A stretch of 64,000 nt of DNA from Apostichopus japonicus (lineage: Eukaryota; Echinodermata; Holothuroidea; Aspidochirotida; Stichopodidae): contig NC_092579.1 of the NCBI RefSeq assembly GCF_037975245.1, positions 20,342,666 to 20,406,665 on the forward strand, written 5' to 3'. Made by a program: the position numbers and the translations under genes. Numbering within the stretch: position 1 is the first letter of the stretch; every line of letters starts with the position of its first letter. Positions 1,988 through 60,038 of this stretch are shown one piece after another. The notes below the pieces were generated by a model that saw nothing but the letters and a program-made list of their open reading frames with translations, did not search any database and was not told where the DNA came from.

Positions 1988-4900
1988 TTATACGCTATAA
2001 GTTCCTTCAGGTTTAATAAATGTACTCCCTACTGACGATTTGGCTGTCTTCAAGTCTTTTATTATCAAAGACTCCCACTTGAAAAAGTTACACCCCCCCT
2101 GATAATTGGTAACGTCCCTCAGTCCAAACCGTCCACTCTGCCTTCTTCCGCAACAGGAATAGTACGGCCTGCCTTGATTCGGACCTGGTGAAAACACGGT
2201 CTTACGGCGCGTTCTTTTTCCACAGTTGCACAACGGGGGTGTGATTCTTGCAAACTGAATATCTTTGGAACGTTTCAGTGGAGTTTGAAATGAACTCGGA
2301 GAAACTCCTTTTGTGTATGCAGCTTTCCCCATTTCATTCTCTGAAACATAAACGGAAGTCGGGGTTGTACTCGCAGATTTACAATTCCGTAGATTTGGAG
2401 TGTGTTTTTTAGTTCTTGTAAATGGGACGGAACGAGTCATTCCTTGTCGACTCCCCTGGTGACCTTTCACCTCTGGGGTTTTGAAAGTAGATTTATCGCT
2501 ACCATCTACATGTGTCTTTATGTTAACCACTCTCGTGCCTCTTTCTTGATTTGTCAGAGCCGGTGAACATTTTGACGATGTTCGCTGAAACTGCACAAAC
2601 TGAGTTCGTTTCAAAGGTACCTCTGGGGTTGTGAATGCCGTACGACTTGTGTTCACAGTCTTTATCCCAAGGTCCTTGCTCCTTTTGGTAAATTGATGTA
2701 AGCTACTCTCTGTATAGTTTTTAACCCCATCATATTGTGCATTGACATTATCCTGTTCTTTATTGAGAGGCCATGACTCTATCATCTGTGTCTTCTTGTC
2801 AATCGCATCTTTAAACTCTACAGCTTTGAACTGTTGAATATTCATAGCTGCATCTGTAGGAAGTACTTTGTTCTCAGGTGTTCTCATCCCACAGTCAGAC
2901 TTGGTATAGTCACTGCTAAGAGAGGACCTTGAGTTGCTTCCGTGTTCCAGAGGGCACTGGTTATCCATCTTTGTTACTTTCTTTGCCTTCTTATCGTCTC
3001 CCTTGGAACTCTGGAATGATAAGAAAATTTACAGATTGTCTGTTAATAATTTAAGACTTAGTTCAGAGTGCTGTATGTTTCCAAAAGTTCCTACTAAACG
3101 TATTCAAATTTATGTTCCTGAAAGGTTTTGAAAGAATTTTGCAGATGTTAAGAATGGTCAAAGTTGAAACATGTTGAATTGATGAGAATTACAATACGTG
3201 AGATGAGGGGGAGGGTGTGTTGGGAGGGGGGGGGGGTTGTTCGGAGGTGGCAGCAGTGAAGTAAATGATAAATTTATGGAAGAGTGTATTTCATTTGTTT
3301 GTTCATCCAGTGGGCTACTTTCTATTTCACTGGGTGTGCAACACTGGATTTTTTTCTTATATTTTTCGATTGTGTGGTACCGATAAATAAAACGTGCAAT
3401 ACCGATCAATCAAATATGCGGTACTGAACAATCGAATGTGCATTACCGATCAATCGAATGTGCGGTACCGATAAATCGAATGTGCGATACCGATCAATCA
3501 AAAGTGTGGTACCGATAAAACGAATGTGCGGTACCAATCAATCGAATGTGCGGTACCGATGATGCGAATGTGCTATACCGAACAATCAAATGTGCGGTAC
3601 CAATGATTCGAATGTGTGATACCGAACAATCGAATGTGCGGTACAGATAAATCGAAAGTGCGATACCGAACAATCGAAAGTGCCGTACCGAACAATCGAA
3701 TGTGCGGGACCGATCAATTGAATATGCTGTACCGATCAATCGAATGTGCAAAACCGATCAATCGAATGTGCGGTACCTATCAATGGAATGTGCGGTACCA
3801 ATAAAATTGAATGTGCGGTACCCATCAATCGAATTTGCATTCATGCAATTATTTCATAATGAATTCCACAAGGTTGAACAAACTACTTCTTATACCATTT
3901 TTTATGGAATACAAAATTAAATAAACTTGCAGGGTGTATTCAAACTTATTTTTTACATTTCAAATCCAGGATATACCATACATAAGCCAGTTTTCAACTT
4001 CACTCAACTGTTTAAGATTTTTTGAGATGTAATATTATAAGCTTATGAGTAATTCTCAAACTTTATGAAAATGATAATTTGTGGGCGATATCAGTCACTG
4101 ACTGAGCAAATTAATTTACTCGGTGTGCAAACTAATTTACTTGGTAGGCAAGATAAGGTGTTTTTTTTTTTTATACTTTCCTTGAGGTGGTAGTGCCAGG
4201 AGTTTTTCAGTGGTGTTGAAATTGCTGTGACAATCATTCCTTCAAATTTATTGATGGGAGAGCCATCTTGAATTTGAGGATAGATGATGATTGCTGTTAT
4301 TCCTAGCTTATCTTTATCAATAAAGTGACTCCATATCAGAGGAAGTATAACAGCATCGCCGTTATTTATTGCTACATATATTTGAAGAAACGACACTGAT
4401 GCTTGGAGGATAGCATGGTACTGTTTCACTGAAACATATATAGTCCATTGTAGGATATATTCACTGTTCTATTATGATGGCACACTGCTTGGGGTAATAG
4501 TATAAATGTTCCTTGTTTTGAAGGGGTTACAATACATCAGTAAATTGCAACATGACAATTCAGAAACGCAAACCCCAAATGGAGCCGGGAGGGTTGCTGA
4601 GCCTGTATAAGATATGAAGGAGGCTCCTCTTTGACAATTCTAACTTTACAGAAATAGAAATATTAGGCTTCAGGGTGTATTAACTAAATAATTTTAGTTG
4701 GCATAGTATAATCATTTTGACGCAGCCCCTATTTTTTGATGGTGATCCTGGAAATTATTCAAGTGAAATACACATGTCGCCAGAGATCCTAAGTCTCGGC
4801 GTTTTGTGTGGAATACAGCAGATAACCAATAATAGGCACTAGCTTAAAAGTTAAATAACGTATTGAAGGCAGAATTTAAGTCGTGATATGCCATAGACCC

Positions 4901-35101: not shown

Positions 35102-38100
35102 ATGTCTCGGGACCCTCTTCATGTTTTTCTTATTCTCTTTTCTCTTCTCGTAACATTATTCTCTGTGGTGCTTTGCTCGTTAGCATATTTCGCAGACAAC
35201 AGTGAATCCAGTAAGTATATTAGTATACCATAATTAACAAATATAGCCTACACCCTGTGTTGTGTACCTTTCCCTATATGCAAACTTACTATAGGTCGTT
35301 GCTATAGAAAGTATGTCTTTGTTAACATCCGCTGTTACAGCTTCCAAAACTGTACTATTATAAGAAGAAGCTCAGTGGCGGAGCTAGGGGTATTGGTCAG
35401 GGGGGGGGGCAAGAATGGTCTGTAGGGGCGCTTTCAACACTATCTAAGCGGAGCGCCACCACAGGTTGGCGCGGAGCGTACAGAAAATTTTTGAGTAAAG
35501 ATACTCCCTAGATCGCTGGAAATGACCCTTTCCGGGCCTTGCTAATTTGCAGATAAACAAAGAATAAATAGGTGTCATCGCCATTTTGTCAGAAAATTAC
35601 ACCAACAGAATATGACAAATGTCAATAGGTAGACGAGAGCGCAATAAAAAGTCAATAATCGCGAATAAGTAAAAAGTAGTAAAAAGCTGAAAAGGGCGCA
35701 AGCAGTCCATTTGAGTCCGTCAGGGGGGGGGGGCATTCGCCCCCCTGACTGTATGGACGCTCCGCCACTGAAGAAGCTGAATTGCTACAAGTGCCATGTA
35801 ATCATGACGTTGCTATCCGTCATGGATTATCTTATGGCAAATATCTTTATGAAGATCACATGTATTTATTGTCGACTTCTCGTGCAGGCGATGTTCAAAT
35901 TAAATGGACCACTAATCAATGGGCTTTCAACTTTTGAAAACAAAGATAAAATGGTGAATTGTGAAAAAGTGTGCATATTTCTGAATAATTTATCCCTTTT
36001 AAAAATCATGGGAATTGATATTGCATACTTATTGTATTATACTTTCACCATGCAATGGGTACTTAAGATGCAATGAAGACTTCTGGCAATTTCAGAGGTA
36101 GTGGAAATCATTAACATCATTAAAACTAAGGATATTCAACAGTTAAACTTATATGCATAACATTTTTATACAGGGCATTTTCTAACAGAATGTTTAACAG
36201 TTGCTTTCAATTTCTTGATCCTCCCAAAAGACCGCCTCCTGTCCCTAACCTGCCTCTAGTCTACTTCCCTCTTCCAGTCACAATCCCTCGTCCAGTTCAT
36301 GTCCCCCCTCAGTCCCCTCACCGCCTAGACCCTTTCCGTCAATCCATCCACCCACGCTCTAACCGCCCCCCCCCCTTCCCTCAGCTTCAGTCCCTGTCCC
36401 GTCGTCCAGCCCACCATCTAACAAAATGAATGAAGCCGTCTTATTATAATACGGCATTTCGTTGTAAATTACCTGGTATTTAGAAGTAAGAAAAATCGAT
36501 ATAGATGAGCCCGAAGAAAATCAGTGCAGTTTGTACAATCATAATTATATTCCGCTATTATGGATGCCATTAATCATAGAACTATCTGCGTTGTAATATT
36601 TCATATATTCACTTATTACTGCAAGAACATTTCTGAAAATATCCGAACATTTTACACTTCCAGTGAAATGGTCATTATGATGTTATTTTTCTTTACAAAA
36701 AAACAACAACAACAATTATCAACCTTTCAACAGCCTGGTTCAAGAACAACAAGCAGGATGTGGCGTCTGTCTACCACACAGTAATAACACCATCAGCCTG
36801 GGTAAATGGTCTATGGGGACTGATCTACCTCTGGCAGGTTACATGGATTCTTCATCATTTATATACCATCTGCAAGAAACAAGCTGACGGTTACAATGAA
36901 GCAATATCAACGGGACTTGTAGCTACTTACACACTGGCGATTAGCATACTTAATTCGGCATTCTTCTGCTACGACCGGTACTATTTTATCGTTTATTTAC
37001 CATTGCTCTGCATCACCAGTTTATTGTTTCTAACGTGCCTTGGAATACACGTATACAACGTTTCTAAACTCAGAAGAGAGTTTTTTCAAACTTTCAGGTA
37101 AGATGCTGCATATTTTGTCCACTGTTAATTAGATATATGTTATTATATTTGGGTGGTGGTTATACATATCCAAAGTTGCGCCTGCGCACTATGCATGGGA
37201 TGTTATGGCATTGTCTGTAAATGAATGGGAGTCATGTGTGTTTGCTCAGTTACTCACACAAACTCAACTGTGGCTTTAATCACTGACACTAAAGTGGAAG
37301 TCACTGAAATATACCAAACTTTCATAATAGATCATGAAAAATAACACAGTTAATGTGAACGGATCCAGATACGATTTCTCAATTGTCGTTCCATCGAAAG
37401 CAGGGCGCCTTGAAGGTGGTAAAGCTGTGATATATTGACCATTGTTTCAACGCATCAGGCTCATAACGAAAGACTAATCACGCTATCAATAATTAAACAC
37501 CTTGCATTTAAAACAAAGCAAGTGTTCTAACATTATGATACCATACACAGTATACTAAATAAGTGAATAACGGCGTCAGATAACATTTCAAACGTTGAGT
37601 TGATCTTTAGTGTCTGTAATCATCAAATTAAATAAACAATAACATAGAAACGAGATTATACATTTGGTTCAAAGATCGTATTTTGATGATACGATTAAAT
37701 ATATGTGCATATAGACAAACTATGTCTGTTTGTTAACATAGACAATGTGTGACAATTATTAACACAGAGGAAGTCTTCAAGCACGAAAAGTCCAAATTGG
37801 GTTCATGTTTGTGCATATAAATTATGTTACCTACTTCAGGTAGAAAAGAGTGTAATTTACCACCTTCCTCCATCTCCATCTCCCTCTTCTACAAATCCCA
37901 CTTATAGTTCTCAGGAAATAATCTTTGGGATAACGTTAATCTCAAGCAAGAGATTTCAATGCCCTACAACTTTCCAATCCACAGTAATAATTAGCACACC
38001 ATTGTTTACAAGCCTAATCAATATCTTAACCATGCCTCAGAATGCACCAAGTCATGTTTTTCCTTCTGACGAAGAACCCCCTGCAATGGAGTCAGCTTCA

Positions 38101-39137
38101 ACGAACTCAGGGCCACAACTCCTTCTCATTCGAACCGACCTTGCCTTGAACACACGGGCGTAGGAACCGGGGGCTAGGGCGCCAGTCCCCCCAGTGAAAA
38201 ATATGGAGGGGGCGGAAGTATCATTCCGCCCCCCCACTTCGCAAGTCAGGAAACCCCTTTTTCATTTCCAAATGAGAAAAAAATCTCATTTGGAGCACCA
38301 ATTTGCATCTAAGGCCAGGTGAAAATGCAAAATTATATACAAAATGGAGTGGGTGGGTTGGTGTGTGCTATATTGCACCAAATTGCATCTGAGGCCACCT
38401 GGAAATGCAAAAAAAAATCCAAAGGGGAGGGGGAAACCCCTCCCTTTACACCCCTCCCCCAGGCCGGTCATCAGTCTTCAGCCCCCCCCCCCCTCCCCAC
38501 TTAAAAGTACCTTCCTACGCCACTGCTTTGAACAATATTATGTTAGGATCAAAGCCAACAGTTCAGAAGTTACCATGATCTTTATATATTGAAATACTGT
38601 CATCTCCTTAATTTTCTAACACTCATCTTCAAATTGATTCGTTACAGGAGCAATTTCGTCCGGAGGCATGTCTTCTTCCAAAACGGAATGGCATTTATCT
38701 TTGCCTGGAGTGGTCTGGAAGCACTATTGTCTTTGGCGGTGATACTTGTGTACCAGACAGGACAAACTCAAAATGTATCTGGTGTTGTCAGTCTGAGTTT
38801 GCTCGTATTCTTCATGCTTATATCAGTGCTCGTTGAAAACAGTTTCCACGAAAAATTTGCAACCTACATCTTCGCGCACTGGTTGGTTGTCATCTGGCTT
38901 CTGATTGGTTGCCTGACTGAAAACTGGGATACTAGTTCCGCGACATGCATTGCTGTTATAGTAATCCTTTGTTTTTCTGTTGTTTATTTCTTGAGCAAGT
39001 CTTACCTTGCAATGCAACGGTACAGACGGATCAAAATTCCACACAGGAGCGCAACAGTTGCCCAAAAATATCCATCCAAAAATACCATGAGAGGAAATGA
39101 AAAAAGCGTTAAGCTAAGACAGCAGTTACAGTTTTGA
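35102..39137 (+). CDS. Multi-pass membrane protein, TspO/MBR-like, paralogue 1
   Basis: Predicted 320-aa protein from three exons: 35102-35210, 36734-37097 and 38648-39137 (introns in phases 1 and 2). Exon 1 starts MSRDPLHVFLILF and is a hydrophobic leader or first membrane helix. Exon 2 carries VITPSAWVNGLWGLIYLWQ and ends at LRREFFQTF. Exon 3 carries FAHWLVVIWLLIGCL and a basic, polar tail. About eight hydrophobic segments are visible. The T-P-x-x-W-x-x-x-x-W-G-L-I-Y-x-W pattern and the later W-L-V-V-I-W-x-L-x-G pattern resemble long forms of TspO/MBR (tryptophan-rich sensory) proteins; this family assignment is from memory of motifs, not a search. An acceptor AG at 35092-35093, nine bases before the ATG, implies a non-coding 5' exon upstream. 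The start was chosen because exon 1 is then 109 nt, exactly as in the paralogue downstream. A possible AATAAA lies at 40057. Transposon copies sit in intron 2 and just 3' of the gene. Confidence 0.88.
35373..35770. mobile_element. Non-autonomous hAT-like element with CAGTGGCGGAGC ends
   Basis: A 398-bp element with ends cagtggcggagct / acgctccgccactg and an exact 8-bp duplication aagaagct (35365-35372 and 35771-35778). It is in intron 1 of the first TspO-like gene. The interior shares the ctatctaagcggagcgccacc segment with 62072 onward. Confidence 0.93.
38153..38525 (+). mobile_element. Non-autonomous hAT-like element, family B, copy 2
   Basis: Same element as 23649-24013, inserted in intron 2 of the first TspO-like gene. 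The duplication is imprecise: ttgaaca occurs immediately left and two bases from the right end. The ~55 bp to its left (38097-38152) also occur inside the copy at 44398-44875. Confidence 0.85.
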
Positions 39138-42992: not shown

Positions 42993-45900
42993 ATGGCTCA
43001 AGACTTCCGTTTCGTTGCGTTATCTGTGGGCATCTTGTTGTTATTTGCCCTAACATTATTTGTAAACTACCTTGCTGGTGCTGGAGAGGAAGCCATAATT
43101 CGTAAGTAAATATTTGACATGTCTATTTAATAGACCTTAATGCCTCTCTCGTTTCTCATGAGAAAACTTGAAAAAAAAACTTGAAAAACAAATAGTTAAC
43201 ATGAAGAGAGTATTTGACCAGGAATGGGCACGGAATCTGATCCAGCTGGCCCACTGAGAAACTATTTAACAAATTAACGAACCCCAACGCTTTAGATTAT
43301 ATATATCATATTCCTGTGGTCATTAAAATGGAAATCAAACATAAGAAATTAACCCATGCGAATTGTCCATCTGTTATGTTCAATTATCCTATCTCAATAG
43401 CCTCTACAATGATGACAACTCCCTTGAAAGTACGAATAAGCTTTCATGTTTTACTGTGATATACGCTTCCGCGGACCGCAATGTATGGACTTTCAAAATC
43501 TCGCCGGTCTCAGAGAGTGCACGGGCTCGAGGATAGGAAAGTGCTACTGCTGTTATATCCCCCCCCCCCCCCACCCACCGCGCCCCCTTTCTACATACGC
43601 TTAAGGCCGGGTCATATCTGCGCGATTCAACACGCGATTCAACTCGCAACTAAAATCACGCGAATCAGAGAAGTTGCTTCTGAGAAGTTGCACTGATTAG
43701 GACATTGCTCTATATTGCAAATCAACCCAAATCGACGGCGCAACTTTTATTGCGCAACAAGTTGATACCCGTGTCTAACTACGCGATTCAACCTTCAATT
43801 GTATTGCGAGTTGAATCGCGCATATGTGACCCGGGCTTTAGAGGCCAGGCGATCACAGGAGAATCATGCAAAGGCGCAATCACACGCTAACGAATAGCTC
43901 ATAGCGTGGTGAATAGCAAGGATCGACCCAGCGCGTTTGGCAAAGAAAACTTGGCCTTAACAAAGGCTAGATCGAGGACCGCATACGGTCCGCTGGCGGT
44001 ACCATGCCCACTTGTGTCATATAGAGTTTAATACATTTTGCTTTCAAATTGGTAAAGTAAAGAATTGTTGATGGATTGTCCATGCTCATACGATGTGGCC
44101 GGATTTAAACACGCGTGTCACGTTGTTGGTAATAATAAGCGACAGATTATGCAGATACGAGACCAGTAATAATAGTCTTGTGTAAGCATCAGACTCGTTC
44201 TGTTCTATGTGTACAAGTGATGGAAATGTTGATAACAGATGTAACGCTTTCTAATGATTAACCTGCAGTCTTCTAAAGCGAAAGAAAATTCCGGCAGTGG
44301 ATTTTAATTGAACTAGATTAAGAAGAAGAACTTGGCTTAAAGTTGTTGTTGAGTCTACTACAGTACTTTGTTTGTATAATCAGGACTATCTGTAATGCAG
44401 TGGCGTAGGAAGGTACTTCTGAGTGGGGGGGGGGGCTGAAGACTGATGGCCGGCCTGGGGGAGGGGTCTAAGGGGAGGGGGATTTTTTTTTGCATTTCCA
44501 GGTGGCCTCAGATGCAATTTGGTGCAATATAGCACACTTCAACACCCACTCCATTTTGTAAACTTAATTTTGTATTTTCACCTGGCCTCAGATGCAATTT
44601 GGTGCTCCAAATGAGATTTTTTTTCTCATTTGGAAATGAAAAAGGGGTTTTCTGACTTGCGAGGCGGGGGGGGGGGCGGAATGATACTTCCGCCCCCATA
44701 TTTTTCACTGGGGGGACTGGCGCCCCAGCCCCCCGGTTCCTACGCCCGTGTGTTCAAGGCAAGGTCGGTTCGAATGAGAAGGAGTTGTGGCCCTGAGTTC
44801 GTTGAACGAAGCGGGGGCGGAATGATACTTCCGCCCCTCCACATTTGTCACTGCCCCCCGGTTCCTACGCCCTTGCTGTAATGTAATGTTGTGATTAACA
44901 AAAACAATGGGATCTATAACGTAGTTTAAAACAGCTGTGACGAAATATGACACCGTGTGTTGTAGGCCTAATTAGTTATAATGATGAGTGATTGCTTCAA
45001 TTATAGAGTACCGTATAGTATGGCAATGATATAAATAATGTTCTACGATGGTAATATTTTTGTCACAATGAATTCTACTTATGTTGCATGCTTCTTTTAA
45101 TACTTTAAATACTTCATTACGTGTAATTTTTAATGCGATATATTTAAGTGAATTGTCTGATGTTGGCTATGATTTAGTATCTAAATTTTGATTTGTATTA
45201 ATACCCTTTATTAATCGGCTACTTTTTGGTGATTGTGCATGTCTGTCCTTCATCGGGATATCTTTTTGGCTATTACGGGTTTCTTGCATATTGCACATCT
45301 CATTTTTTTCATATATTGCCCGTTTGAAAAGTTAGCAAAATTCGTTTGTCCAATCACGTTATCCAGGAGCTGTTCATGCTTAGTAGAAAATGGTCCAATG
45401 GTCTTCTTTGCTATACCGATGTGACAAATGTCTCCCATTTCCCTGCAGCACATAGCATCATAAATTTGTCAGTGGGTGACGATTAGTATAAATCATCTCG
45501 AGGGTGGGCTTGGGGGTGTCAGGCGGCTACAGTCCCTGGGACCGGTGTGATTTTGGGGACCCGGGAAAATATACGATAAAGTGTAAACTACTCTAATTTT
45601 CGTATTATACCCTATAAAGGAAAGGTCGCACGTACTACTGCGGGGATTAGGTAGACCTTAAGTAAAAGGAGGAAAGAGACAGAGAGCGAAATAGGCCCGA
45701 TGATGTAATTGTCCCCTGGCCCGACTTGGCGCTAGGCAGCCCGGGTAAAATGAAGACGAAAGAATAATGGAGTCACTGCGGTATATAGTGAACAATTCAC
45801 ATTATACTGTTGTTTGATTTTGTCTCTCTTATTTTATATTTACAGCAATCTTTGAGACATCGATTGGTGAAGTGTCCGATAAATACACAACTCCAGTGAC

Positions 45901-47317
45901 TCCAGCTAACTGGACATTCGCCATCTGGGGTTTAATTTATACTTGGCAGCTGGTACTTATAGCCTATGTCTTGTCAACGATTTGCCGAAATAATGACAAC
46001 GATGAACCTCTGTACAAATATCCACCTGTGATAACGTATGGATTCCTGGTGGCCTATACCTTAAATCTCATTACCAATGCAGGCTGGTGTTTCTTCTTCT
46101 GTAACCAGAAGATGGTTTACGCACTCGTTATTATAGTTCTCTCGGCGGTGACGCTTTACGTAGCGCTCATCAATAACAGCATCCGGGTATTCAAGTTCTA
46201 CGGAGACCTATACAAGACATACAGGTAAAATATGCCAGTTAATGTCCTTCTTAGCGACAAAGGTATAGTAAGCTTGTCAAGGGTGCACTCATCTATACTA
46301 CATGCTGTGGGTGGGGGGGGGGGGGGCTTCCATTTGCAGTGAGAATATTACCAAAATCCTAGTGTACTGTATATGTATATATATTTATTTGCGGTACAAC
46401 TTGAAAAGTCGAAACCTCTTCCACATTGCTTCAAAACCTGCAAAATATAGCACCATTTTGCGTCTCAGCATCCTCTATTTCACCAAATTGCTCAACGGGA
46501 GGGTCTCCCCCTTCCTTAAACCCCTCACCATTGACGACATGACGTCTTAGTCCTCCTGCCCCCTCCTAACCGCACCGCTCAAGATATGGTGGTTGGTAAA
46601 CCAAACCCAGCTTGAGATTTTTGAAGCAATATGCCTAGACTATGTATTTAACTGTAAATTACATAAATATACGAAGATCGTGGTATGTACTATTTAGCCT
46701 GGTGAGCCACATTGGGATTATCTAGGAACGAAAAACACGCCATTGATAATTAAAAAGTTTGTCATGTACAAGTTGCTGGTGGCGGAGTTACAAAACAGTT
46801 TTCAGGGAATGTAAAATATGTCTCCCCTATAATGACGATCTTAGATTGAATTGATTGATTTGAATGGGTTTGATTTTGTTTCTTCAGGGGAGATCTGATT
46901 GCCAACTACGTGATTATTCAGAATGGAATCTCTCTCTATTGTACCTGGTTAACCATTGCGTCACTGATCAGTCTCTCTATTGTACAAATATACCTCCTTG
47001 GCGTCGACGTAAAGACATCGGGTACCATCTGTTTCACCGTCCTCGCAGTGGTGATAGTACTACTCGCAATCCTGGAGAATACGCTGCTGGAACCATATCT
47101 TGCAAACGTATACACTTCTTGGCTGGTCGTGATCTGGGCTCTCTCTGGTAACCTTTCAGCCCACTGGAATCCATCGGACCTTAATGCCATATTCGCGGTA
47201 GTCTTACTCGCGGTAGCAGTCGTTGCCTTGGCGACCAAAATTGGTTTAAGGATATTCAAAAAATCATATGGTTCAAATTTTAAGACTACAGGCGTTGAAT
47301 ACAAATCTTTCTACTAG
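42993..47317 (+). CDS. Multi-pass membrane protein, TspO/MBR-like, paralogue 2
   Basis: Predicted 305-aa protein from three exons: 42993-43101, 45846-46224 and 46888-47317. Intron phases (1, 2) and the exon-1 length (109 nt) are identical to those of the neighbour 3.9 kb upstream, so the two are a tandem duplication. Exon 1 encodes MAQDFRFVALSVGILLLFAL, a membrane helix. Exon 2 encodes PVTPANWTFAIWGLIYTWQ followed by two or three more helices. Exon 3 encodes SWLVVIWALSGNLSAHW and a last helix with a short polar tail. Conservation with paralogue 1 is strongest around the TP..W....WGLIY.W segment and the WLVVIW.L segment, which also mark TspO/MBR-like proteins (cholesterol/porphyrin-binding family); a ligand cannot be inferred. 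An in-frame upstream ATG at 42861 exists, but an acceptor at 42977-42978 places it in an intron. A TATA box lies at 42675 and a polyA signal at 47435. Confidence 0.9.
43604..43837. mobile_element. PIF/Harbinger-type MITE
   Basis: A 234-bp element with inverted ends aggccgggtcatat...gcgcgattcaac / gttgaatcgcgcatatgtga + cccgggct, flanked by TTA on both sides (43601-43603 and 43838-43840). A TTA duplication and no coding capacity fit a Harbinger-derived MITE. It is in intron 1 of the second TspO-like gene. Confidence 0.85.
44398..44875 (-). mobile_element. Family B element, composite 478-bp copy with captured flank
   Basis: Flanked by an exact 8-bp duplication ctgtaatg (44390-44397 and 44876-44883), with ends cagtggcgtagg / cctacgcccttg, so it inserted as one unit. 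Inside are a full family B copy, then ~57 bp (44749-44806) matching the flank of the copy at 38153, then a second ~68-bp element end. It is in intron 1 of the second TspO-like gene. Confidence 0.88.
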
Positions 47318-49919: not shown

Positions 49920-52448
49920 CTAATATTTTCTCGGAGATGATCGTCGTGAGGTTTTCCTTTCTTTATCATCATCTGATGTTTCGAACAACTTACTGACACC
50001 ATATGCAAACAAACCAACAGCTATGGCACCGCCAGTCCATAATAGTTGATTCACATCTTCATCTTCCTTCCTACATTGTGCCTGAGTTTGTTGGTACCTA
50101 CTCTTTGTCTCTTCGTAAAATTCATCGACGCCCACACCCCTGGCCGACTGTTTGAACTCTCTCAAGATTTGGGAATGAATTCTTTTAACACTGTCTTCGC
50201 TTCTCTGTGATGAATTTTGGAGTGTGTCATCAAGACGGTAGTCTCTTTCAAGCCGTACTATCTGCTTTCTATGATCCTCTCTTGATATTGCATGAATTTC
50301 AAAAATTCGTGTATCAAATATGCCTTTCAATTTCCACGTTAACGTCTGCAGTGATTTTTCACACACTTCGGACGGACATCCTGTGCAGTAAAACTTAAAT
50401 CGTTCCTTTGCCTGACCAAGACAGGTTCTGTCAGTTCTGTACAAATATTCCTCCGAACAAGGCAACGGTAAATTATATAACTGTTGAGTGTAAAACTCTT
50501 TTGCCTTGTGCATTCCTCTCTGAATAAGTGTTCGTTGACTCTCTTCAATCAATGTTTCAACATCTTCAACTGCCTTCTTCCGTACATAGTGTGACCTGGG
50601 TCCAACCGCCCCACTGTCGTAGTGGTTGAGAACTCGTTCAAATCCGTCCTTTAAATCTTGAATGTTGCTCCCAGTTCCTAAGTTATCGATGATTGGTTTC
50701 AAGTGTTCATTTCTCAGTGACCGCATTAGGTCGTCACATGACTCCTGTGAGAGCCGGCTGTTATTATCAGCAATTATAGACTTCTCATTCTCAATTTCAG
50801 TTAAAAGTTGTGATCGTCTATCAGATATAAGACGATTTCCATCATTTCCAATCATGTTAGTGTAGAAGCTTTCCGCTTTCGAACAAGCAGATCTATGCAA
50901 TTTATTAAGCTGTCGGTTTGAACATGGTACTTTCAACTTACGTATTTCATCTCTGTATAAAGAAACGGCCTGTTCGAAGAACTTTTCAGACAATATATTT
51001 CCAGCGCGTTCTTCAAACTCGGATACTAATGATTCTAGTTCGTTCAACATAACCATTTTTGCGGGTCCTCTCGCGGATTTCTGGTACTCTTGAAGAGCCC
51101 CCTGCCTTGCTTTTTTTACATCTTTCAAGTCAGCTACATTGGTCTGTTGAAGATATTTCGTTTTCATTTTCTTTTTTATCTTCTTACACAGGGAACGCGA
51201 TAGTTCTTCATTCTTCACATGGCATGACCGGAGCTTTTCCTTTATCTGCGCGTTAAACTTTGCCGTGTAAAATTCGATGTCTGACGCAGAACATTTACCA
51301 GTTTTTGAAGATATAAGAGTCAATGTTTTATCTGTTGCGATTAAATGACATGCATCGACTTGCTCTTCCTCACAGGGCATTTGTATAGCTCTCATTTCAT
51401 TAGCATAAAGCCTTTCGGCTTCCTTGGCAGCTGTAAGACAATCCCAGGCACTTTCCACATCGATGATACCGTTAGGAGTGTTGAGAACGTTCACGTATGC
51501 TTGCAGTAGATCAGCTAAGTCTCGTCCCTTCAACACTTTGCCCACTTCCCTTTTCACTTTTGCAGACTTGTTGATCTTTGTAGTAATATGCTGCATAGCA
51601 TCATTGAATGTCGGATCGAGGTTTGAAATACCTTCAGGTGAATCTAGAGTTTTAATCACGACTGGATCAATGGACGGAAACGGCAAAGATTCAGCATCAA
51701 TTTCACCAAATGTGTCAACCATTGACTTTCTGATCTGATTTCTTTGATCCGGTGAACTCGCGTTTCTATTTTGCAATATCGTTTCTTTAATGTAATTCGA
51801 CCAAGTACAAGGCTTATTTTTGAGCTCTGGTTGAAGAATTGCATCCCTAATGAGCCAGAGAAAGTCGGGTAATGACGTGTTGGATTGGTGGGGCGTAGGC
51901 CGACCACTACGTTGTGGCAGTTTAGCCTTCTTAACAAATTCACTGAAACTGGCCAAGAATCCCAGCTTTAATAGATCATCGTAAGAAGGTGTACCTTGGC
52001 TATTGAAGATGAAATATGAACTTAGCAATAGACTCAGTGCCAGCAATTTTCTTTCCCATGTGTTATCTTCGTTACCGTCTGAAGTGTTAAGAGAACCAAG
52101 ACCCTCCGTATCTAAGAAAATCAGTCTGGCTGGATGTCCGTTTCTCATCACAGTACATTCGGGAGAAGCAATCCATATGCCAGTGGTCTTTGATGTTGTC
52201 CCGTGGTGGACGTCGAATCTACCGCCATTTTGTATTTGTGATAGCAAAAAGGATTTACCGCTTCTGACTGGACCAGTTATGCAGACTACCACGACAGAGT
52301 GGTCAATACTTTTAATAATATTCAGACCTTCTTCACAGAGCTGTAGTTTGTTTCGAGGAGCTCCTTCATTTATGTGGATGCATTGTTCTTCCGCATCCCA
52401 TGTTTGGTTGTCAGGGAGACACAGAGGAACGGCTTTATCTACAGCCAT
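49920..52448 (-). CDS. Guanylate-binding protein (GBP) family GTPase with C-terminal membrane anchor
   Basis: Single-exon ORF of 842 aa. The N-terminal third is a GBP-type large GTPase domain: P-loop GPVRSGKS (residues 59-66), TTGIW switch I, LDTEGLGS with the G3 DTEG at 112-115, and the GBP-specific LWLIRDAIL with RD at 200-201 in place of NKxD. The C-terminal part is helical. Three Y/F-x(3)-A-x-G-P/V sites near residues 452, 605 and 761 mark tandem ~153-residue repeats, and conserved PC motifs recur. Vertebrate GBPs are about 590 aa with one such unit, so this protein is extended. Residues ~802-822 (LLWTGGAIAVGLFAYGVSKLF) look like a transmembrane helix followed by a basic, polar 20-residue tail. 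An AG acceptor at 52478-52477 gives a 28-nt 5' UTR in this exon, with a non-coding exon upstream. Vertebrate GBPs act in interferon-induced defence; defence here is inference. It lies head to head with a second GBP gene. Confidence 0.95.
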   Translation of the reverse strand: MAVDKAVPLCLPDNQTWDAEEQCIHINEGAPRNKLQLCEEGLNIIKSIDHSVVVVCITGPVRSGKSFLLSQIQNGGRFDVHHGTTSKTTGIWIASPECTVMRNGHPARLIFLDTEGLGSLNTSDGNEDNTWERKLLALSLLLSSYFIFNSQGTPSYDDLLKLGFLASFSEFVKKAKLPQRSGRPTPHQSNTSLPDFLWLIRDAILQPELKNKPCTWSNYIKETILQNRNASSPDQRNQIRKSMVDTFGEIDAESLPFPSIDPVVIKTLDSPEGISNLDPTFNDAMQHITTKINKSAKVKREVGKVLKGRDLADLLQAYVNVLNTPNGIIDVESAWDCLTAAKEAERLYANEMRAIQMPCEEEQVDACHLIATDKTLTLISSKTGKCSASDIEFYTAKFNAQIKEKLRSCHVKNEELSRSLCKKIKKKMKTKYLQQTNVADLKDVKKARQGALQEYQKSARGPAKMVMLNELESLVSEFEERAGNILSEKFFEQAVSLYRDEIRKLKVPCSNRQLNKLHRSACSKAESFYTNMIGNDGNRLISDRRSQLLTEIENEKSIIADNNSRLSQESCDDLMRSLRNEHLKPIIDNLGTGSNIQDLKDGFERVLNHYDSGAVGPRSHYVRKKAVEDVETLIEESQRTLIQRGMHKAKEFYTQQLYNLPLPCSEEYLYRTDRTCLGQAKERFKFYCTGCPSEVCEKSLQTLTWKLKGIFDTRIFEIHAISREDHRKQIVRLERDYRLDDTLQNSSQRSEDSVKRIHSQILREFKQSARGVGVDEFYEETKSRYQQTQAQCRKEDEDVNQLLWTGGAIAVGLFAYGVSKLFETSDDDKERKTSRRSSPRKY

Positions 52449-53810
52449 GATTACAAATCTTGACTTGTTCCAGAACCTGAAAAAAATAAAATATGGTATC
52501 GGTAAATATTCCCATTAAATTATATATAAATATACGTTGGTACATCACTTATGCGTTTGGACTGCAAATTTATCGTTATGACGTGTTAACTTTAAAAACG
52601 TGTTGTAAAGGGACTAACACATTGATATGATCTTCGAACAATCTTGTTTACCTTTCATGAGGTATAAGGGAATAAATTTGACACAACGAGTAAGCCAGCC
52701 GCTTTAACCTAAACATGTACTTCGTGACTAGATTTTGAAACCACATTAAAAAATAGATTTAAAAAATGTATGGACCGATGTGTAGAATAAGGTTACGTTC
52801 TCATAAACCTTAGGACTATCTCATAATGACACCAAAGTACCGTAATATGTCAACGCTATACAAACATTCACAGTTAGCGATAACACAACGGGGGTGATAA
52901 TCCAGCATGAATAGTGAACTTTCCTTTACTATTATTTGACGCTTGGGTGAAGTATCAATTAAGGTTGCTGTGAAGTTTAGAATATACCGAGTCTATGCAA
53001 TCAACGAGTGAATCGTCACTTGATTTGGTTTAGGCTTCATATTCATAGGTCGTTGTAACAACAAAGGAAGATTATAAAATAAAGGCGAAAAGGCTTTAAT
53101 TCATAATTAGAAACAATTAGTCAATAGTCAGATGATAAAAGAGACAAGAATGAATGGTGAAAACATCCTCTACGTACACTAAGCCTTGTAACGCTGATAT
53201 CAACTGCAAGAGTTAATTACCTTTAATGACACTTTTAACTGTAAGGTATGACAGGCAACGCAAACTACGTATCATTTTCATTGATATAGTCTTCTCTGTA
53301 AGTTGAATATCATCTACTAAAATGTCAGTTGTTTCATGACAATGGTAGACATAAGAATTAGGTCATTGCAGCTTCCACACAAGTCCACACAAATATGAAG
53401 TGTACAGGTTTGCTATACCACGTACGCTAAGCAGATACTCAGTGCTGTGTGAATACAGTCCTACATCATGAGAGCTGGGGCGTAGCTACGTGATTTATGA
53501 ATGTGATATCCGCCATTTTATCGACCATAAGTGGTCAAATGTTTATCAAAAGTACCATGTTTGCGTAGGCCCATCATCGTGATTAAAAGAGGCAACCTTC
53601 AGTACGCACAAAATAACACTGCAGTTTTCACACCATTTAAAAAAATGTCTGCATATTTTGTCATCGATATCATGAATTCTACTTTGTAGAATCTACAGTT
53701 GTATTAGATTCAACAGTACTGAAAATTAAGTTTAACCATAGCTATACTACAAAACGTTTCATTGTACTGTTCGTTACGTGATGTATACAGTATTGCGATG
53801 CTCGGAACAC

Positions 53811-54046
53811 TGCAAAGTTCGGACACCCGTAAGAAATACACGATTTCACCATGACAACCTATAGCAACAGCCAATTTTACGAAAAACTACAAAGCTACAT
53901 TTATTTTCTCTCCAAAATGACCCGTGTGCAAAGTTGTCAATAAAATGACGGAGATCTATGAAGTCTGCTATAATTACTGAAAGCGCAACTCCGCCACCAA
54001 TTTTATCACCAGCGCCACACTGTGGGTTGGGTGTCCGAACTTTGCA
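53811..54046. repeat. Pair of perfect 18-bp inverted repeats
   Basis: TGCAAAGTTCGGACACCC at 53811-53828 is exactly inverted at 54029-54046. A partial third copy (ggtgtccgaactt) is at 54231. No target duplication was found, so it may be a degenerate MITE. Confidence 0.65.
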
Positions 54047-56153
54047 ATACTCTAGCAAAGAAAAAGCAGTTGCACAATCACGAAGAAACTTCTTGGAAAG
54101 AAACGTGAAAACAGTTTGCAGGAAAGAAAGTTTGGCCGTGTATCGTAATATTATACACTTCTCCCACCATATCAAGTATATTTTCCAGTGATTAAGACCA
54201 GAGGATATAGTTTTGGCGTGTTTTAAGGCTTAGGTGTCCGAACTTCGAAGTGTCCATGCTACATGTACTCGGTGCTCCTACTTATTTGCGGCTACTTTGA
54301 TTATACAGAAGGTCTTTCGTGATAAAATTCAAAAATAAAACGAACTGAGTACTTTATTTTCCATTCGACGGTTTCAAACTGAATAAAGCAAACTTTTACT
54401 CACCTGATAATCCGTCTTGAAGAAAATGAATTCTATGCGTCAAACTGAACCCAAAACGTGTAGTCAATGTAGCCTAGGCCTATGTATATCTCTCACATCT
54501 GGTATTTCTATAAGGTTGATGTGTTAGTTCTTATAATGATACCAAGATTTACACAGGAATAGATTTACAAAAAGGAAACAACGTTGCATCCGTACAGACA
54601 GCAATTCCTGTCACTTCCGGTAGATACGACGCAAATAAACTTGTAGCTGAATTGAAATTGAAGCTTTGACCAAGACTCCCGCTACGTGTATAGTATAGGT
54701 GTGTTATATTAACAGCACAGCTTACGCATAATTTCTCGTATCTGATATTATTCAAAAATATATCACTACGCACCTTGCCACCACCTCTACACTAGCCAGC
54801 TGGTTGGAAATACCCAATATTATTTAAAGAAGTATACGGCGCATGGTTCTATCATCATAGCGTGCAATAGAGCGGATTTTGCATACAATCGACGAGCAAT
54901 TGACCAATCAAATGGCCGGAATATAATTAGGTGTTGTATAATTGGAAATACCCAACATTACTTTAATCGGGACAAATCTATGGCAACTTTAAGATGGCGT
55001 TGATATTACGGTATGCAGTAATCAACTTCTTTATAATGAACAGTTAAGGTATATTCGACGGCACCTTAGCCTTTCCGTACATATGTTCATACTGCGCGTA
55101 TGTGAACGACACGCAGACTCTTTACATGACGATAAGTGATGAATACAGTATATATCAATTTGAATGAATAGCTATTACATACCAGTTGTACAATAGGAAG
55201 GTTACACTATATACTCATTTAGCTTTTGAAACTAGGCTTGTCTCAAAACCTGATCTGTGAGCCTGTACTCGGACTTAATATTAGTTTTTGTTTACACGAA
55301 CTGCATTTGAGGCGCTACACGTACAGTTCGGGGGGGGGGGGGGTTCAGTCGGGAGATATGCTTTGGCTAGAAATATACCATCATCATGTGTGTACCCCAC
55401 CCCTCCCCCACCTTTTCTTACTTTTAGAGCTACTTATAACGAACTGATTTATAGCCTAAATGAGTATCAGAATGCACAATAATTGACTTCTACTTTTGTC
55501 TGGAGGAAGAGAGACCAGACCACCCCCCCCCCCGCCCCTGACAGGAGTGTCGGCTTCATTGAACTCGGGGACGCATTCCACCGCTTTGATAAAAACCCTT
55601 TTTTCGCAACTGGCACTTCCATAAAGGTTCAAAACCCTATATAAATCAGTCTGATGAAGTCACCTTTTACTATCCTGTGCATTCAAGTGATACAGTTTTC
55701 ATATTTGTACGTTTCTGTTGCACTATACAGGAAAACAGTTATATAGTAGTAATAATTATATAGTCAAATAATATAGTTGTATATTAACGTTTGCTTTTAA
55801 AGAAATACACATTTTTATTTACCACAAAATAAAGGTTCAGTTTGTGTATTATGATGTGTGCCTGCCGATATGTGCCTATAATACACCTGTACATATCATA
55901 GCTATACAAAAAAATAAGATAAACACACTTCATGTTTTAAGATAAAGTTATGTTTTTGATTAATACTTCGTTTGAATGTTAAAAAGGTGCCTGTAGACGA
56001 TTCCCGAAATGACTGTATTAAGACATGTTAAGAGCTTTAATATTTTGGATTCAGCATTTGCAAGACGAATCCCCATAACAGAAAATAAGGATTGGAATTT
56101 TTAAGAAAACCAGATAAAACATTGTAGCACATAATGGTTCCATGATGTCATAT

Positions 56154-56449
56154 CATGCGCGTAGCCAAGGGGGGCGAAGGGGGCAGCCGCCCCCCCCCCC
56201 TCCCTTGAGCATATTTTTACATTTTTTTAAAAATGTTTCTATGATATCTCTAGTATTTTCAAAAGAGAAAATGCTAAGATGCAACTTACAAGGCCTGGGA
56301 AGTGCCTTTTCCAGCGATCTGGGAGGCATTTTCAGCCAAAATTTTCTTGTGCGCTTCGCGCCAACCATGGTGGCGCTACGCTTAGATAGTTTGCAATGCC
56401 AAATCTACAGTTTCGCCCCTCCCTTGGCAAATTCCTGGCTACGCGCCTG
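56154..56449. mobile_element. Non-autonomous hAT-like element, CAGGCGCGTAGC family, copy 2
   Basis: A 296-bp element with ends catgcgcgtagcc / ggctacgcgcctg and an exact 8-bp duplication tgtcatat (56146-56153 and 56450-56457). It lies in the region between the two GBP genes. Confidence 0.93.
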
Positions 56450-57476
56450 TGTCATATTTACAGTTACTCTGGTCTTCAGCTTATTTTGTCTGAGGGGACA
56501 TGCGCATGCGTTATCTCTATAAAGGAATAAGATTTTAAATTTTGTTTGAGGAAGTTGTTCATCCCGTTTAACAATGATTGAGTTTGCGTCTGCTTTAATG
56601 CAGCAACTACATCTTTAAATACAGTTAAATGTGTGATTGTGTTCCATTGTTACGCTGCAATAAAAATCACAAAAGATGATCTTGAAATGCTCTCATTAAT
56701 CACAGATTGATGCTTAAGACAGTAGGCCTAAAGTTTGTCATTAATTATGACCTTTGGAACCATTATCGCTATTGTTTGTCCTAGCTTACACTGCCACCTG
56801 CTATTTAAATTAATGTAAATATTTGACCAAGATATAAAAAAAAGGCTGATAATGATATGGCGAGATGAGATATCTAAACGATGATGACACGTTCAAGTGG
56901 TATCATGTATGGAGATAAAAGATGTATTATATATATACTAGATAGCTGAAGTTACTGCCTTTGCAACACAACAAGGGTGAAACGTAATATATGTTGCAAC
57001 AGGTGTATAGTCTGAGTTCACAAAGTGCTTCCCATTGCTGTTTTGTTCAAATGTACTGACTGTTCGATCAATTTGTTTGCACACCAGAGCTTTAGTAGTT
57101 TTCTGCATATAGTTTCAGTTCATGCGTAAACGTCCACAGGAACGTGATTTTGTATATGTTACTATGAACAAATTATTAATAACAAATAAGAAATTGTCGA
57201 TACATCATACTATCAAACGAACCTGTATTGAAAAGAAGGTTACCATCTTAAACATCTTCACAAGTTCATTATGGCAATCGTACCAGATACCTAAACACAA
57301 ATTCATCGAGCAATTCCTTTTAGAACATGCTAATTAAGTATGATAAACCTGGCTACTAGGCCTACTATATGATATTTTATGTGTATGGTATAACTATTAA
57401 CATAGAAGCCTTCTTCTATTACTATTCACAGTTTATCGGCTTGTTGATCTTCTAAAAGAGAGAGAGAGAGAGAACT

Positions 57477-60038
57477 ATGGAATCTCGGACATCCGTTCCA
57501 CTATGTCTACCAAGCAACTTCAGGTGGAACCAAAGGAACGCAGCAATCGAGGTGCAGGAAAATGAACCACGCGGTAACATAACCGTATGTCCCGAAGGAT
57601 TAAAGCTACTTCAAAGCATTCAGGAGGACAATGTCGTGGTAGTATGCATTACAGGCCCAGCCCGTACCGGAAAGTCGTACTTTTTGTCACAAATCGAAGA
57701 AGGAGCTTCCTTTAAAGTTAGCCATACTACAACAGCAGAAACCACGGGAATCTGGATTTCCGTAGCACCAACTTTGTTAACAGTGAACGGAAAAGTCGCC
57801 CGACTTGTACTTTTGGACGCCGAGGGTTTAGGGTCAACCTCCACCGTTGATCAAGATGGAAGCACAGAAAAGTGGGACATGAAAGTGTTTACACTCTGTG
57901 CTTTGTTCAGTTCATATTTGATATACAACAGTCGAAATGTTCCTACCGTCGATGATTTGGACAAACTTGGTTTCATTGCGCAATTTAGATCATTTATATA
58001 TGGTCACTCAGCACCGACAACTGTGGAAGGGAGCCCGGAAGATATACAAGTTGACATCGCTCCATATTTTATGTGGTTGATAAGGGACACACTACTTCAA
58101 CCACAGGTGGACGGCAAGGATTGCTCCTGGGAGAAGTACATCACTTCCTCTGTGCTCTCTGTGAACGATGATGGAGTTAAGAACCGCCGAAACGCCATCA
58201 AGAAGGCAATCTGCACGACCTTTCGACATTTTGATGCATATGGCTTACCACCTCCTTCTGTTAAGCTGGAAGTAGTGCGGAATTTATCATTACCCGAGTA
58301 CAGGGCAGAAATCAATCCGGAGTTTTTGAAAGGGATCCAGGATGTGAAGGAAAAAGTTCTTTCACTTTCGCAAGTAAAGAAGATTTTAGGTTGTTACCCT
58401 ACCGGTGATCAACTTGCTACGTACGTGTCTGAGTGTGTAAAATCAGTGAATAAAGGGTTAGATAAGTTGTCAGTACCAAACACATTGGATTCTCTCATTG
58501 AATTACGGCTGAATGATAGTTTCCACCAAGCAACACAAAAATATGATAAATGTATCCAAAAATTAAAGCTCCCTGTATTGACTCGTGTAGCGAAACGCTT
58601 TCACCATGACGCATCTAAAGAGGCACAGGAAGAGCTTTTCCAATTATTATCACCTACTTTTGATGACGACACAAGGGCAATATGGTCTGAAAAACTCACT
58701 ACTGCCCTCGAGAAGAAATATGATAATTTAAAAGAGAAGAATTTGAGCGAATCTCGTAAACAGTGTGAAAATGTAGCGGCTGAGTTAACTAAAACTTACT
58801 TGACTGCGAAGACTGACACATTAAAGAAAAATTGTTTTAAAGATGTTGTGAAAGCTAAAGAAGCTATCCTCAGAGAGTACTCAAGTAAAGCTAAAGGACC
58901 ACTTGTTAATGAAGTAAAGGCAAAGTTGAAAGAAAGAATACAGCACAGAATAAACGACGTAAGCAGTGCTATCATACAAGCATCTCTAAAAACTGTTGAT
59001 GAAATGTATGCGCGAGGAGAGAACAAAGTTAAACGTGAAATGCCGTTTGAAGAACACATTCTAGAAGCAAAATATAAGCAAATTGTTACTTCCTGTTCAA
59101 ATCTCTTCATCCGAAAATGCGAGGGTTGCTATCAATTCCATGAAAAGCTTTCCTGTCTAAAAAAGGATTTGAGAGATCGATTTGACACACTCCAGAATCA
59201 TAATGATACTTGCTCACAAGATGAGTGCGAAAAAAACATGAAGGCTTTGAAAATGAAGGATTTCGATACGATATTGAACATGGCAAAAGATGCATCTTAT
59301 TCCCATTTAATAGATGCTAAAGAAAAGGTCATAACAAAATACGACCAGGCTGCAGTTGGACCAGCGAAAGATAAAGTAAAGAGAAACTATATGGAGAATA
59401 TTGACGAACAGTTGAGTCGTGCGCAAGGAATCATCTCTTTGGCAGCTTTTGAGGAAGCAGAGAAAGAATTAAAGGAATACCTAGATCTGGTAGAAAAACG
59501 AGACCCTCTTGAAACTGAAAAAGAAACATCGCAATATGAAACAAAATGTACTAATATAAGGAAAACCTATGAAGGGAGATGTTGCGGAATAGACACAACT
59601 GTTGCTTCTGTGTATAAAACCAAACTAAGTAAACTTGAGGGGAGAAATAGGACCAAATTTGTCACACTGCAGAAACGACGATCGGAAGATTTTTGTAGAA
59701 AGTTAATGGAAAAGCTTATCCGTGAAAACTTAACACCCTTATTAGATGACGTTCAATTCCTTGCTGACTTTACGAAAGCGAAAGAACACATTTTAAAACT
59801 TTACAATGAGCAAGCTAAAGGTCCTAGTAGTGAAGACATACAACAGGAATACCTTGTAAAGATAGACAGAGACATCGACATAGGTCAACAACAACGTGTG
59901 TTAAAAGGATGCAAGCTAGCAGCTGATGCAGCTTTGGAACTTGCCAAATTGTCTTCACAGTTTGGAGGCAATCCTGCTAAGATAGCCGCCGGTTCTGCGG
60001 CCTTCATACAATTAGCTAAGGATGCAATGAACAAATAA
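57477..60038 (+). CDS. Guanylate-binding protein (GBP) family GTPase without membrane anchor
   Basis: Single-exon ORF of 853 aa, paralogous to the GBP gene at 49920-52448. The N termini align closely (VPLCLP..., VVVVCITGP). P-loop GPARTGKS ends at residue 67. Switch I is TTGIW. The G3 motif is DAEG (114-117), where most GBPs, including the neighbour, have DTEG. The RD motif in MWLIRDTLL is at 203-204. Three repeats marked REYSSKAKGP (~467), TKYDQAAVGP (~620) and KLYNEQAKGP (~773) give a 153-residue period, the same as in the neighbour. The C terminus (AADAALELAKLSSQFGG...) is Ala-rich and lacks a clear membrane helix or CaaX box. The ATG follows a short (GA)n run and an AG acceptor at 57430-57431, so a non-coding first exon is expected. 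The start is supported by alignment of the first residues with the neighbour. GTPase function is likely; the effect of DAEG on hydrolysis is unknown. Confidence 0.95.
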   Translation: MESRTSVPLCLPSNFRWNQRNAAIEVQENEPRGNITVCPEGLKLLQSIQEDNVVVVCITGPARTGKSYFLSQIEEGASFKVSHTTTAETTGIWISVAPTLLTVNGKVARLVLLDAEGLGSTSTVDQDGSTEKWDMKVFTLCALFSSYLIYNSRNVPTVDDLDKLGFIAQFRSFIYGHSAPTTVEGSPEDIQVDIAPYFMWLIRDTLLQPQVDGKDCSWEKYITSSVLSVNDDGVKNRRNAIKKAICTTFRHFDAYGLPPPSVKLEVVRNLSLPEYRAEINPEFLKGIQDVKEKVLSLSQVKKILGCYPTGDQLATYVSECVKSVNKGLDKLSVPNTLDSLIELRLNDSFHQATQKYDKCIQKLKLPVLTRVAKRFHHDASKEAQEELFQLLSPTFDDDTRAIWSEKLTTALEKKYDNLKEKNLSESRKQCENVAAELTKTYLTAKTDTLKKNCFKDVVKAKEAILREYSSKAKGPLVNEVKAKLKERIQHRINDVSSAIIQASLKTVDEMYARGENKVKREMPFEEHILEAKYKQIVTSCSNLFIRKCEGCYQFHEKLSCLKKDLRDRFDTLQNHNDTCSQDECEKNMKALKMKDFDTILNMAKDASYSHLIDAKEKVITKYDQAAVGPAKDKVKRNYMENIDEQLSRAQGIISLAAFEEAEKELKEYLDLVEKRDPLETEKETSQYETKCTNIRKTYEGRCCGIDTTVASVYKTKLSKLEGRNRTKFVTLQKRRSEDFCRKLMEKLIRENLTPLLDDVQFLADFTKAKEHILKLYNEQAKGPSSEDIQQEYLVKIDRDIDIGQQQRVLKGCKLAADAALELAKLSSQFGGNPAKIAAGSAAFIQLAKDAMNK

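Follow-up and report, generated by a model that had tools for sequence, protein, structure and literature searches.

Human-type GBPs are the closest described relatives of the genes analysed here. GBP1, GBP2 and GBP5 (PDB 6k2d, 7e58 and 7e59) consist of a GBP-type large GTPase, one middle domain (alpha7-alpha11) and a GED (alpha12-alpha13), about 590 aa in total. The known GBP coats come from vertebrates, whose GBPs have a single middle domain each, and the parallel crossover of the GBP1 middle domains is described as required for coat formation (PMC11746146). Open GBP1 measures about 270-280 Å and is anchored to the membrane at its C-terminus (PMC12091997). According to a review, the CaaX box occurs in GBP1, GBP2 and GBP5 and not across the family (PMC12489281). 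Long C-terminal extensions (1000-1100 aa) or TM segments without a CaaX box are also found in the plant GBPL1/3 and GBPL2 clades. These extensions are described as coiled coil, disordered region and NLS, or as TM helices, and the available sections describe no repeated middle domains (PMC12489281).

GBPs of non-vertebrate animals have been reported from amphioxus and other invertebrates, and the amphioxus proteins are upregulated in immune tissues (PMC9005921). In this 2022 review both what GBPs do in invertebrates and where they are present were called unclear, and its available sections mention no domain repetition (PMC9005921).

In Apostichopus japonicus (Echinodermata; Holothuroidea) we found GBP genes that likewise encode a large GTPase and a middle domain, the latter in 2 to 8 or 9 units instead of one. 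Two of them lie in the window, which is the whole stretch of 64,000 nucleotides of contig C19 that was analysed. Tandem middle domains are a variant on an otherwise known GBP architecture and apparently unreported, as far as a search of the open-access literature, a weak test of absence, returned no report of them. The natural series of unit numbers would offer a direct probe of how the middle domain contributes to signalling, to the geometry of coats and to membrane reach, and would add to the poorly known invertebrate GBPs.

Two head-to-head GBP genes in the window

The preliminary description had proposed two GBP genes in head-to-head orientation. Both parts of this proposal are borne out by the strands of the two ORFs and by their Pfam E-values (Table 1). 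PF02263 scores reach 120.5 bits in the left and 114.5 bits in the right protein at a cut-off of 21.1, and both proteins contain the P-loop, the switch I Thr, DxEGLG and RD, the four motifs expected of the GTPase. The right protein was in addition matched by the Pfam family GBP_C. The two proteins share 30% identity over 653 aligned positions.

Table 1. Features of the two GBP genes in the window.
Feature	Position in window	Strand	Remarks
Left GBP gene	49920..52448	-	uninterrupted single ORF, 842 aa
Left GTPase domain, residues 33-300	51549..52352	-	Pfam GBP 9.1e-35; GPVRSGKS, TTGIWI, DTEGLG, LIRD
Left middle-domain unit 1, residues 332-481	51006..51455	-	HMM; 49.8 bits, own lineage left out
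Left middle-domain unit 2, residues 482-636	50541..51005	-	HMM; 75.3 bits, own lineage left out
Left middle-domain unit 3, residues 637-791	50076..50540	-	HMM; 39.4 bits, own lineage left out
Left C-terminal hydrophobic stretch, residues 802-822	49983..50045	-	candidate membrane anchor, then basic tail
Spacer between both gene starts, 5.0 kb	52449..57476		blastn against spacer of the other pair
Right GBP gene	57477..60038	+	uninterrupted single ORF, 853 aa
Right GTPase domain, residues 35-302	57579..58382	+	Pfam GBP 6.1e-33; GTPase motifs
Right middle-domain unit 1, residues 341-494	58497..58958	+	HMM; Pfam GBP_C 3e-12, best stretch 309-527
Right middle-domain unit 2, residues 495-648	58959..59420	+	HMM
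Right middle-domain unit 3, residues 649-802	59421..59882	+	HMM
Right C-terminal tail, residues 803-853	59883..60035	+	Ala-rich, without CaaX, best hydropathy 0.78

Searches of the PDB gave GBP1, GBP2 and GBP5 as the strongest matches for both proteins. All 13 chains matched by the right protein are GBPs; among the 16 matched by the left one, three are atlastin-like and much weaker. Atlastins share a related GTPase and a helical middle region, which is a single short helical bundle, and carry paired TM segments. They match weakly here: the left protein hits GBP at 2e-23 and the atlastin 3x1d at 8.4e-6, and a profile of the six window units scores 13.4 bits against atlastin (E 0.56). An identity as atlastins is ruled out by the far stronger GBP matches and by the lack of a paired TM hairpin at a hydropathy cut-off of 1.5; no protein of the family has more than one hydrophobic stretch at this cut-off.

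In the window proteins the last unit is followed by some 50 residues. The best 19-residue hydropathy in the left tail is 1.25, under the anchor cut-off, compared with 2.09 in the paralogue left2 of a neighbouring gene pair. In the whole family the cut-off is reached by two of ten GBPs, left2 and the gene on contig C13. A CaaX cysteine (position -4) is absent from all ten ORF ends, where a further 3' exon is possible. In contrast to GBP1, GBP2 and GBP5 with their CaaX boxes, the A. japonicus family shows long single exons and a short tail, which in the window GBPs appears to replace a recognisable GED with CaaX box.

The spacers of 5.0 kb in the window and 2.3 kb in the duplicated pair gave no blastn match to each other at E<1e-3. 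A bidirectional promoter common to both pairs is ruled out by this lack of similarity.

The repeated unit is a GBP middle domain

C-terminal to the GTPase domain, each window protein carries three copies of a helical unit of about 154 aa. Each protein contains exactly three matches to the landmark [YF]x3AxG, at offsets of 155/155 (left) and 154/154 (right), a pattern that none of 20,000 shuffles per protein reproduced. The triplication proposed in the preliminary description is thereby confirmed. In all six units a Pro close to the start and an AxG close to the end are invariant.

The units were recovered when proteins and whole lineages were left out of HMM training; with leave-lineage-out HMMs, every unit of left, left2, right, right2 and the C13 gene was kept. 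Reversed, shuffled and other-ORF sequences served as controls. The HMM built from 51 units gave one match to a reversed sequence (10.3 bits, iE 3.8e-4), while the 54 accepted matches all scored at least 40.7 bits with the self-trained HMM. These controls rule out that the units share mere generic helical similarity.

For comparison with known structures, a profile was built from 27 of the 37 non-first units, taken from eight of the ten GBP genes and including no first unit. Its best PDB matches are GBP5 326-463 (E 3.4e-4) and GBP1 329-467 (E 1.4e-3), which cover nearly the whole unit; the next chain is unrelated (E 0.054). The first-unit profile matches GBP1 329-413 (2.7e-5) and GBP5 326-413 (3.8e-5), and hhalign joins the first-unit and extra-unit profiles over 143 columns with a probability of 99.5 and E 8.8e-23. 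With the six-unit profile a designed repeat protein comes first, through a match of 22 residues, and GBP1 ranks next (5.5e-5). When single units were scanned against Pfam at E<=1, GBP_C was the commonest family for both kinds of unit: it was matched by nine of the 27 extra units (best 1.9e-4) and, among the ten first units, by four (best 7e-8). Many one-off families at chance level also appeared. Because both extra and first units match GBP1 and GBP5 in this way, the repeated unit is, by profile comparison, the GBP middle domain. The unit had earlier been equated with the middle plus effector region, which does not hold, since the profile matches the middle domain instead. When the right protein is aligned by phmmer, the landmark falls on GBP2 residues at about 445-453, inside the middle domain; across unit 2 the alignments of this protein extend weakly into the GBP2 GED.

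A single continuous coiled coil is disfavoured as the sole description, since the unit matches the multi-helix middle domain of GBPs and the Pro and AxG positions are invariant in the six window units. The sequence thus shows a large GTPase domain at the N-terminus, then middle domains in tandem and a short tail.

The GBP gene family in the genome

The genome (671.6 Mb, 35 contigs) was searched for further members. The protein searches scored the best candidates, so that all counts are lower bounds. At least ten near-full-length GBP domains were found, four on C19, one on C13 and five on C15. The C19 genes form two head-to-head pairs in tandem at 20.39-20.41 Mb, the second pair lying just outside the window, and the five C15 genes are located at 5.04-5.27 Mb. 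A tree of the GTPase domains shows three groups, namely left with left2, right with right2 and the C13 gene, and the C15 genes. By pattern, the P-loop GKS is found in 10/10 GBPs, switch I in 6/10, DxEGxG in 9/10 and RD at the expected place in 6/10.

With the iterated HMM two full units were counted in the C13 gene, three in each C19 gene and 5, 6, 6, 7 and 9 in the C15 genes (n=10), where the seven-unit gene has an additional half unit. With an HMM trained without C15, the last unit scored 5.5, 5.7, 11.8 and 10.2 bits in four C15 genes out of five. These units are doubtful, as their scores lie near the 10.3-bit reversed match, and without them the conservative C15 counts are 5, 5, 5, 6 and 8. 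All five C15 ORFs reach a conserved acceptor-like AG without a start methionine there; the C15 genes therefore probably have an upstream first exon, and a search for this coding exon identified none.

Two further ORFs on C19 consist largely of units and have no GTPase match. They lie in tandem at C19:30461997-30463475 (L050, 512 aa) and C19:30469071-30470528 (L051, 498 aa), are 91% identical and contain two full units and a half unit each. They were missed by the GBP-domain search, and their scanned parts show no Pfam match at 0.01. Both begin with a stretch that resembles a signal peptide as judged by eye, and it is possible that they encode secreted GBP-stalk proteins.

At C1:17416654-17417174 (L048, L049) a GBP fragment with 67-69% identity to the right protein contains stop codons and represents a decayed copy. 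Beyond the ten GBPs, the two unit-rich ORFs and this fragment, the best candidates of three protein searches gave no further locus. Weak GBP-domain matches were seen at 15 places (L022-L036) with open frames of 371-1986 aa, 11 of them at C1:3.05-3.44 Mb and the others on C9, C3, C7 and C20. L023, the one place scanned, encodes a GTPase of the URGCP/VLIG type (URGCP_GTPase 1e-87), and on this basis the URGCP/VLIG-type family may be expanded in the genome too.

Proposed function of the tandem middle domains

On balance we lean towards GBPs with tandem middle domains and a prolonged stalk, likely acting as a cell-autonomous defence coat or tether. Once GTP is bound, the GTPase domains would dimerise and the middle domains would exit in a parallel arrangement like that of human GBP1. 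Added in series, the extra middle domains would lengthen the stalk and move the GTPase head and the tail further apart, or would provide more contacts. We infer an extended stalk from their presence. The tail, with a hydrophobic anchor in some members, would contact the target membrane, and the unit number would set the thickness or reach of the coat or tether. The defence role is likely, by analogy with other members of the GBP family. Hydropathy values of only 1.25 and 0.78 in the window proteins speak against the tail-anchor step, and the stalk reading is weakened by the option that the units pack back on each other, for example as a substitute for the GED.

Such packing is the basis of an alternative that we regard as unlikely, in which the extra middle domains form an autoinhibitory lid that replaces the GED and is released by GTP. 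The lid would rest on the first middle domain and the GTPase domain, giving a compact resting molecule in which reach is not the selected trait. It would resemble human GBP1, whose GED folds onto the LG domain and MD (PMC12091997, PMC11746146). The short sequence past the last unit in the window proteins and the lack of the CaaX cysteine at all ORF ends would also fit, but a single lid needs no copy-number range from 2 to 8 or 9.

Evolution of the units

Selection on the units bears on the stalk reading as well. Between left and left2 (C19:20406996-20409488), dN/dS is 0.35, 0.22 and 0.29 for units 1, 2 and 3. From these values all three left-gene units seem to be under constraint; dS approaches saturation in unit 2 (1.83) and unit 3 (1.20). 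Divergence is much lower in the GTPase part, where a dS of 0.25 suggests gene conversion or exchange between the two copies. Identity is 87-97% over the first 180 residues and 32-78% beyond. For right2 and the C13 gene, a unit-1 dN/dS of 1.295 was discarded because the alignment fails where the C13 gene lacks one unit.

Three C15 pairs have dN/dS values of 0.76-0.78 for the units, indicating weak constraint on them, and of 0.71-0.72 for the GTPase part; the end of one pair shows 1.71 at very low dS. Fast-changing C15 units would be expected if each unit bound a host or pathogen ligand and the copy number provided avidity or breadth, not length, and the signal-peptide-like starts of the two unit-rich ORFs would agree with a recognition module used alone. 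We consider such a binding surface quite unlikely: the left-gene units are constrained, the C15 GTPase regions change nearly as fast, so that the speed is not unit-specific, and the units are not known to bind a ligand.

The longest C15 gene contains two almost identical units, u6 and u7, and in its DNA, blocks at a distance of 699 bp show 90% identity over 1.6 kb. As judged from this identity, an in-frame tandem duplication of about 700 bp inside the long exon of this relative is recent. In the 2054-aa ORF (L054) a spacer of about 85 aa occurs four times between residues 1128 and 1904, alternating with the later units. That these spacers are degraded units is ruled out (hhalign probability 0.4). 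The near-identical u6/u7 blocks, the two-unit C13 gene and the decayed-looking last units of four C15 genes would also be produced if unequal crossing-over in one long exon added and removed units with little functional effect, but such drift is very unlikely in view of a reading frame kept intact through up to 2054 codons, the low dN/dS (0.22-0.35) over all three units of the left pair and the three-unit state common to the four C19 genes.

The repeat had been described as older than the split of the left and right genes. In the best unit tree right u2 joins right u1 and C13 u1 (95/96), and left u2 joins the C15 u1 clade (95/89), with long branches flagged. AU tests reject neither positional unit clades (p 0.161, 0.0502 and 0.105) nor lineage-specific clades (p 0.0816 and 0.188) and are thus compatible with either order of events.

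Starting from the prolonged stalk, a wider reading is possible and put forward tentatively. The genes would form an immune-GTPase family in which stalk length or valency is evolvable, with 2 to 8 or 9 copies of the middle domain arising by in-frame duplication within a single exon, together with secreted middle-domain arrays without a GTPase. The long intronless exons expanding in frame suggest a route for domain growth.

Other open reading frames in the window

An exon-like ORF at 45818-46228 of the window matches TspO/MBR (6.3e-7). Similar-looking membrane ORFs are located at 36667-37101, 38547-39137 and 46874-47317; two of these three were scanned and gave no match. Together these ORFs suggest tandem genes. 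The ORF at 8735-9205 matches a GIY-YIG nuclease (2.6e-5) and is perhaps a remnant of a Penelope-like retroelement. A GRF zinc finger (2.6e-8) is encoded by the ORF at 1988-3028.
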